In this document: piece after piece, positions 48,326 through 50,310 of the stretch
Layout: every line of letters begins with the position of its first letter
How positions within the stretch are numbered: the stretch's first letter is position 1
NCBI RefSeq assembly: GCF_000165425.1
Contig: NW_001799011.1
Location: forward strand, 63,933-127,932
Source of the DNA: Paramecium tetraurelia
Lineage: Eukaryota > Ciliophora > Oligohymenophorea > Peniculida > Parameciidae
Length of the DNA stretch: 64,000 nucleotides
Reading direction: 5' to 3'
Translations under genes and position numbers: made by a program
Notes under the pieces: model-generated
What the model saw: the letters and a program-made list of their open reading frames with translations, nothing else
Database searches by the model: none
Told to the model about the DNA's origin: nothing

Positions 48326-50310
48326 TCATTTAGGTTGAATGGAAGCTAACTATTGTTTATAAAATTCGATAAGTTCTTGCCACTTAGCTTTATTTTTATC
48401 CAAGTTTTAAAAGAAAGGTTCATAAGCTGGAAGGAATCCTAAGACACATGCAAATGTAGGTTTCACAACATAATCAATAAATCTGATAAACAAGAAATAG
48501 AATACCCCACTTATGCTTCTGCTGTGTTGGTTGTATATCGATTACATAGATATGAGATAGGTAAGCCAAGGTCTCTCTCTTTGTCTCCCTACAGCCAAAA
48601 TTCAGATAAGACTTTTTCTGTCCATTATTTATAGATTTCAAAGCTTTTGGTAGGATTGGATACATCTGAGGAATGTACAATCAAGTCCATCAATCTTTGT
48701 TTATCTTTGCCATTGGGTTCAAAATCGGCTATTTTTGCATATATAAATAATAAATACGAGCAGCAACTCTACTATTGGTGATGGCAAGTTCTGAAGCATG
48801 ATGAGCCATATCTGTAGAAAGAACCATTAAGATAATTGATTCTCTGATGCGTCTGTATTTATGAAATTATAGATTTTCAAAAATATTGACTTTTTGATTT
48901 CCCCAGGCAATTTTAAAGCATTAGGAGGGATGATACATTTCTAAAACACTCTGATCATTGTATGTTAGAGCCAACTCATTTCTACTATTGATTAGGAATG
49001 CATTAGTAAGTCCTGGGTGTCCATAATCATGAATAGCTCCAGCAATCAACACACAGGCAATGTCTTATTCATCTAATTAACCTATTTCTATGAATTTGCA
49101 TTTGCTTAATAAGAAATTGCAAGTTTAAGCAACATCTTAAGCATGGACCTTATTGTGATATGGATTATCAAGGTATCCTTTCATTACTTCTTCAAAGTAT
49201 CCTCTTACCACTTTAGGTTTGATTAGGAACACATCAAACAGATTATAATTTTCAAAGAAAAACAACATCAAATTCACCAATCCTTCGCCTCCAGATAGTT
49301 TGTCACACTCAAATGGATCAATATATAGATCATCATGTTATTTATATAATATATCCAGTAACTATTTAATATTATTTTAAACTTACTCTTTTTGGAATAT
49401 TCAGTTTTTAAAAATTAGCAATTACTTTCTTTTGTTATTGTTATTATTAATCATTAGTTAATATTCGCTTGACTTCAGTTCTGCCTTATTAACTTTGATT
49501 TAACCAAGCCATAGCCTATTTATTTGAAATATTGACTTACTTCAGCATTGTCTTCATCCAATTTGCCCATTTAATACAACTGATTATTTCCTATCTTGTC
49601 AATACAATAATCAATATCTAACTTCATATTTTCATCTTCCAACACTTCCTTCAACTCAGCCAGGAACCTTACTATTTTTTCGGCTGGTGTGGAAATAGTG
49701 GAAATCGTTGCCAATCTCCTAAATGTCTGGGCCTTTCTAATTAAGAGAAAGATTCTCAAGAATCGAAAGACTGCCTAGATTACTTTGATTACATTGGATG
49801 TTTTTTGATCAGCCAATTCAAATATCACAAAAAAGAGTGACAGTAAGATAATTAGAGTGTCTAAAATCAACCATTTGTCTTTATAATATTTCTATACATT
49901 ATGTATTAAAATTACCTTGATGCCCCAAGCATACAATCCAACAAATATTTCTATAATGAATACTATCAGTATTCCAAGTTCAATCCAACTCAGAATTGAC
50001 GAGACATTATTGAATTAAGTTTCATCTAGCAATTCTTCAAGGGCCACAATGATAAATATCAATATTGCATAAGCTCCCACCAATGCTATAATACTAATAG
50101 TAACAAGCTTCGAATTCACAATATCTTGAAACTTTTGTTCGGATTAAGTATACAATCTAACTATTCACTGAATTCAATTTACCTCATATTCAGCTTCTTT
50201 CGAGGAACCTCTATCATCTTGTCATTTCTCTTTGTAGAATCCACTCTCATGGTCTATTTGTCAGGGTTTTCAAGACTTCTCTATTAGGAATCAGATCCCG
50301 AGGGCAACAT
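48326..50310 (-). CDS. Voltage-sensor domain fused to a cyclic nucleotide phosphodiesterase
   Basis: The 609-residue model, six introns: 50125-50153, 49892-49915 (24 nt), 49516-49540, 49362-49386, 48729-48757, 48483-48505; codon count closes exactly. Start MLPSGSDSQQRSLENPDKQT. Four membrane helices follow: S1 about 59-83, S2 about 96-118 (LSWIELGILIVFIIEIFVG), S3 about 127-147 (KWLILDTLIILLSLFFVIF), S4 about 158-182 with spaced arginines (FRFLRIFLLIRKAQTFRRL). No pore helix or selectivity loop follows. A linker (about 185-285) leads to a class I PDE catalytic domain: YHNKVHAQDVAQT (about 350), AGAIHDYGHPGLTNAFLINS (about 389) with HD metal ligands, and STDMAHH. Inference: membrane potential may gate cAMP or cGMP hydrolysis, plausibly at the ciliary or plasma membrane. 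Confidence 0.85.

Follow-up and report, generated by a model that had tools for sequence, protein, structure and literature searches.

The locus examined here raises the question of whether a single Paramecium tetraurelia gene encodes a membrane voltage sensor fused directly with a cyclic nucleotide phosphodiesterase (PDE), with no ion channel pore between them, and whether the product could place the enzyme under the control of membrane potential. The gene is found on the minus strand of the 64,000 nt stretch of contig NW_001799011.1 that was analyzed (the window). Its ATG is at 50310 and its TGA ends at 48326, exactly the ends that a sequence-only reading of this DNA had given. The gene is not a single open frame, since six short introns (26, 24, 25, 25, 29 and 23 nt) are needed to join its exons. 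A small gene finder of our own, trained on the window and on fetched loci and reading with ciliate code 6, returned the 610 aa hand model residue for residue. The intron within the S2-S3 loop sits in an identical alignment column (145) and in phase 0 in all five full models of the paralog family, which come from both of its clades, and the copy at C138 has an intron of 22 nt at this place. Neighbouring genes predicted likewise, among them coiled-coil proteins on both sides, have by eye no evident link to the PDE gene. Coordinates are collected in Table 1.

Table 1. Features of the predicted gene in window coordinates, and the loci of its family
Feature	Position	Strand	Basis or remark
Whole gene, 610 aa, 7 exons	48326..50310	minus	hand model and gene finder, code 6
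Exons	50310-50183, 50156-49916, 49891-49541, 49515-49387, 49361-48758, 48728-48506, 48482-48326	minus	code 6
Predicted voltage-sensor domain S1-S4, aa 60-186	49703..50107	minus	Ion_trans S1-S4 half; PDB voltage sensors; residue invariance
24-nt in-frame intron, S2-S3 loop	49892..49915	minus	same place in paralogs
Linker, aa 187-290 (about 104 aa)	49341..49702	minus	interrupted by introns 49540-49516 and 49386-49362
Predicted PDEase_I catalytic domain, aa 351-585	48404..49160	minus	HNxxH, HDxxH, D506, Q557; introns 48757-48729, 48505-48483
Predicted voltage-sensor PDE loci	C58 (window gene), C138, C157, C39, C198, C73

Within the membrane portion, Pfam matched Ion_trans at aa 74-186 with an E-value of 7.8e-13, in agreement with the voltage-sensor domain first proposed for these helices, and covered profile positions 13-121 of 241 only, which is the S1-S4 half. 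Three further, weaker Pfam families in the gene fell below their cut-offs, and PKD_channel also matches three of five members weakly (best 1.7e-4). Hydropathy analysis resolved four membrane segments (63-81, 97-115, 131-149 and 156-174) and no hydrophobic segment between S4 and the PDE, the linker included. The S5-pore-S6 portion of a six-transmembrane voltage-gated channel is therefore absent, and the pore-less architecture claimed for the protein holds.

A PDB search with a 197 aa query of sensor and linker obtained 67 distinct sequences at E<=10, while the reversed voltage-sensor sequence obtained none, so the matches are not due to chance. The best 60 of the 67 are nearly all voltage-gated channels or voltage-sensor phosphatases, headed by the fourth domain of Cav3 (E 2.2e-13), and the tail includes a TRPM2 chanzyme at 0.09 as well as a serotonin receptor at 1.5. 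The likeness to voltage-sensing phosphatases suggested earlier finds support in the sequence, with TPTE2 at 1.8e-7 and 4g7v, presumably the Ci-VSP voltage-sensor phosphatase, at 1.8e-4. With a five-sequence profile 4g7v improved to 1.5e-6 and TPTE2 weakened to 6.4e-5. Cav and Nav domains outscore the phosphatases in these searches. Two single-sequence AlphaFold models of the voltage-sensor exons, for which the 24 nt intron had been read through, were poor (pLDDT 61 and 68, pTM 0.29 and 0.38) and are given no weight in either direction on the fold; Foldseek matched them to 16 and 28 entries, none at E<=0.001, with KCa2.2 (E 4.6) as the sole channel.

Ten signature residues (E102, F109, E112, W130, D134, K159, R166, R169, R175 and K176) are invariant in the five full models. 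Among these are the aromatic and acidic residues of S2, the aspartate of S3 and the basic residues of S4, positions that we take to be known features of voltage sensors, and F109, E112, D134, K159, R166, R169, R175 and K176 are present in 5/5. Only 35 of the 127 positions in the domain are invariant, which gives a hypergeometric probability of 8.8e-7 for ten out of ten, and a stricter list gives 7/7 at 7.5e-5; the former value is indicative only, because the list came from general knowledge of voltage sensors and was drawn up after the alignment had been viewed. The S4 series runs K159, Q162 or R162, R166, R169, L172, R175, K176. Of the regularly spaced arginines attributed to S4, the charges stand, with three arginines and two lysines being invariant, yet the regularity is only partial, as the leucine at position 172 interrupts the series and regularly placed charges are fewer than in a strong sensor.

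The linker carries conserved PxEK, IxNNxxY and EAxxWLxQ motifs. A VSP-like linker was considered, since the TPTE2 alignment extends into this segment, but a profile of the linker alone had no significant match in the PDB (best E 0.22). When the linker of the other clade was used as a query, genome searching matched only the three loci of that clade. Beyond the linker PDEase_I is covered from profile position 1 to 237 of 238 (E 2.9e-76), so the class I enzyme is complete, as had been stated. Its closest PDB structures are PDE4 and PDE1. Residues H352, H356, H394, D395, D506, N509, Y517 and Q557 are invariant in all five full models and presumably correspond to the metal ligands, the general acid, and the purine contacts and glutamine of PDE4; the first five of them and Q557 align with PDE structures. 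The catalytic set is intact, and a class I cyclic nucleotide PDE is predicted. Because of the similarity to PDE4, the substrate would be cAMP rather than cGMP.

The genome searched comprises 69.07 Mb in 231 contigs. Manual grouping of its 69 PDEase_I matches gave at least 42 loci, and 34 of about 42 were modelled; six of the models have a voltage sensor and 28 lack one. With the voltage-sensor part as query, the genome gave 25 matches at E<=1, eight of which fall in the six PDE loci, the remaining 17 overlapping Ion_trans matches. In the 28 sensor-less models the best voltage-sensor profile score noticed was 4.3 bits (E 0.022 in a small set). PDEase_I and Ion_trans were both found in each of the five full paralog models, and the sensor region of the sixth copy matches Ion_trans at 8.7e-14. 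This sixth copy (C138; L010, G000:C138:112282-115650) is the closest to the window gene, relative to which it has two one-base insertions in a PDE exon, and it is thus a decaying or broken duplicate or an assembly error. For this reason it was omitted from alignments A1 and A3 and from the tree, while alignment A2, the dN/dS estimates and the Ion_trans scan drew on its sensor region and the first part of its linker. The C157 model was started at an internal methionine in A1, A2 and A3, so that the 76 residues which the gene finder places before it were dropped. In the C73 model some 10 aa are inserted, in all probability because an intron was missed; this model was included in A1, left out of A2 and used in A3 only past the insert.

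The voltage-sensor PDEs form two clades about 33% identical to each other. In a tree built from 33 PDE domains, 28 of them from sensor-less models, the five sensor copies make up one group with support of 100/97, yet the join of the two clades may be false, since their long branches meet and drew a warning from the tree program. Ratios of dN/dS, calculated with our own script and given only where dS was finite and at most 1.9, were 0.028 (C58/C138) and 0.043 (C198/C73) for the sensor and 0.039 (C198/C73) for the PDE; for the N-terminal tail the ratio was 0.607 (C198/C73), where constraint is weaker. Over aa 187-240 of the linker, C58 and C138 differ by no non-synonymous and nine synonymous changes in 54 codons. 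By these estimates sensor, linker and PDE are all under purifying selection. The proposal that the voltage-sensor helices and the PDE belong to one spliced reading frame is supported by the domain families, the paralogs and selection. Given the invariant signature residues, the purifying selection and the S2-S3 intron common to all five full models, it is very probable that the product is one functional fusion protein.

None of the five members matched an NCBIfam family. Scanning alignment A1 against viral_contigs (352 pattern matches) and genome_contigs (91) confirmed no relative; the latter collection consists of bacteria and archaea, and its scan therefore says nothing on other ciliates. 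A pore-bearing channel-PDE ancestor was also sought among the Ion_trans matches listed (at least 154, with 150 of 520 candidates scored), none of which by eye adjoins a PDE locus, though this is weak evidence as the six voltage-sensor PDEs are themselves absent from those matches.

Other PDE paralogs were noted as well. L048 (G000:C168:147700-151900) combines 7tm_1, the rhodopsin-type GPCR family (E 1.3e-8, aa 63-200), with PDEase_I in one 734 aa model, and C47, whose PDE exon matches lie at similar profile positions, may be its duplicate. L046 (C6) and L047 (C220) have several hydrophobic N-terminal segments, for which Pfam gave no match in L047; together with C176 they are the modelled tree rows nearest to the voltage-sensor PDEs. 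L040 (C191) is a 1222 aa model in which one long hydrophobic stretch lies near aa 100 and another, weaker, at about 150, and its first 260 aa have no Pfam match.

How the helices serve the enzyme can be read in several ways. Many PDEs are simply membrane-anchored, and the four helices might be a former voltage sensor retained as an anchor only, leaving the PDE without voltage regulation. The leucine found at S4 position 172, where another charge would be expected, is in keeping with this. An anchor, however, would preserve hydrophobicity rather than E102, E112, D134, R166, R169 and R175, and both the invariance of the signature charges and of the charge-transfer phenylalanine, in a domain with 35 invariant positions out of 127, and the purifying selection on the domain make this reading unlikely, albeit the most serious of the competitors. 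Less probable again is a sensor that joins a complex of ion channels or other subunits, thereby bringing the PDE close to them, voltage control being indirect. The best voltage-sensor matches are indeed Cav channel domains, in a genome rich in Ion_trans proteins (at least 154 matches), but VSPs, which are likewise voltage-sensor enzymes with no pore, need no partner.

Two further readings we consider very improbable. The sensor could itself be a conductance, an Hv1-like proton channel with a PDE attached, as 3wkv, listed as ‘Ion channel’ and presumably an Hv1 chimera, is among the profile matches (E 1.3e-8). Hv1 needs a mid-S1 aspartate, whereas S1 here has no acidic residue in the middle of the helix and carries acids at its outer end only (E83, E84, D87 and E88). 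Least credible of all is a misjoining of two neighbouring genes by the model, the splicing of which is conceptual only. The sensor lies with the beginning of the linker on one exon, only 25 nt introns and no in-frame stop lie between there and the PDE exons, and the same layout was modelled in five full paralogs with the linker conserved.

We assign a probability of about 0.6 to the reading that the pore-less voltage sensor, the family-specific cytosolic linker and the PDE4/PDE1-like PDE together constitute a voltage-regulated membrane enzyme. In voltage-sensing phosphatases, S4 movement reaches the enzyme through the linker. By analogy S4 would move outwards on depolarisation and act through the linker to raise PDE activity, so that local cAMP would fall; we infer such voltage control, its direction and the substrate from sequence comparison. 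Such a fall would be opposite to the action of the K+-channel adenylyl cyclases, through which hyperpolarisation increases cAMP, and a depolarisation-driven PDE would complete the control of cAMP by those cyclases. In Paramecium a rise of cAMP on hyperpolarisation is described in a review, according to which each of the sixteen adenylyl cyclase genes of P. tetraurelia seems to be a fusion with a K+ channel (PMC4588038). A ciliary membrane location is no more than conjecture, and a ciliary role is weakened by the argument, in another review, that cAMP is without effect on beat frequency at constant voltage (PMC8208649). Broader, and in our estimate somewhat short of an even bet, is the proposal that the pore-less voltage-sensor PDEs are voltage-gated enzymes of a class not described before, which work in push-pull with the hyperpolarisation-activated K+-channel cyclases to let potential set cAMP, and which are old in ciliates, perhaps including Euplotes.

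To our knowledge, the known pore-less voltage-sensor enzymes are phosphatases. The present architecture was not found in the literature searched, which did not extend to preprints, most subscription journals and protein databases, and an earlier notice of it is possible. Since the somatic chromosomes of Euplotes mostly carry one gene, PDEase_I and Ion_trans regions lying side by side in that genus may be the same fusion read as two genes. Such a pair was reported in 2021 as always adjacent in four subgroups and was there read as a functional association (PMC8670190). If the pair were one gene, the fusion would be old in ciliates and would have been seen earlier but unrecognised. A 2023 review, whose figure legend announces the topology of all voltage-sensor proteins reported so far, mentions channels as well as the sperm exchanger, the channel-cyclase and the phosphatase; ‘phosphodiesterase’ appears nowhere in its text (PMC10651576). 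A review of Paramecium calmodulin counts PF00233 in at least 40 P. tetraurelia protein entries, which agrees with our 42 loci; its available text makes no mention of a voltage sensor (PMC9608856). A voltage-gated PDE, if true, would link membrane potential directly to cyclic nucleotides without an ion channel, would be relevant to the long-standing problem of what ties cAMP to potential in ciliates, and might become a tool for lowering cAMP by voltage.

Choanoflagellates possess a rhodopsin-phosphodiesterase, in which a membrane sensor is likewise fused to a class I PDE, although that protein senses light and its sensor is unrelated. Two entries listed as ‘Phosphodiesterase’ among the PDB matches of the window PDE, 7d7p and 5vyd, are presumably its PDE domain. 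The voltage-sensing phosphatases (TPTE2, Ci-VSP) share with the window protein a pore-less S1-S4 joined by a linker to a cytosolic enzyme, which in their case is a PTEN-like lipid phosphatase and in the window gene a class I cyclic nucleotide PDE; Pfam found no PTEN-like phosphatase domain in the latter. The sperm Na+/H+ exchanger SLC9C1 (sNHE) similarly couples a sensor to a non-pore partner, but is an exchanger with its voltage sensor C-terminal, as described in the 2023 review (PMC10651576). The K+-channel adenylyl cyclases, reported in Paramecium, Tetrahymena and Plasmodium (Weber et al. 2004, cited in the available parts of PMC4588038 and PMC10651576), also unite a voltage sensor and a cyclic nucleotide enzyme in one protein, and do so in ciliates. 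Neither a cyclase domain nor a pore was found in the window gene by Pfam and hydropathy. The cyclases have a K+ pore and make cAMP, whereas the window protein is pore-less and would destroy it; the voltage-sensor PDE is a possible counterpart of these known enzymes.
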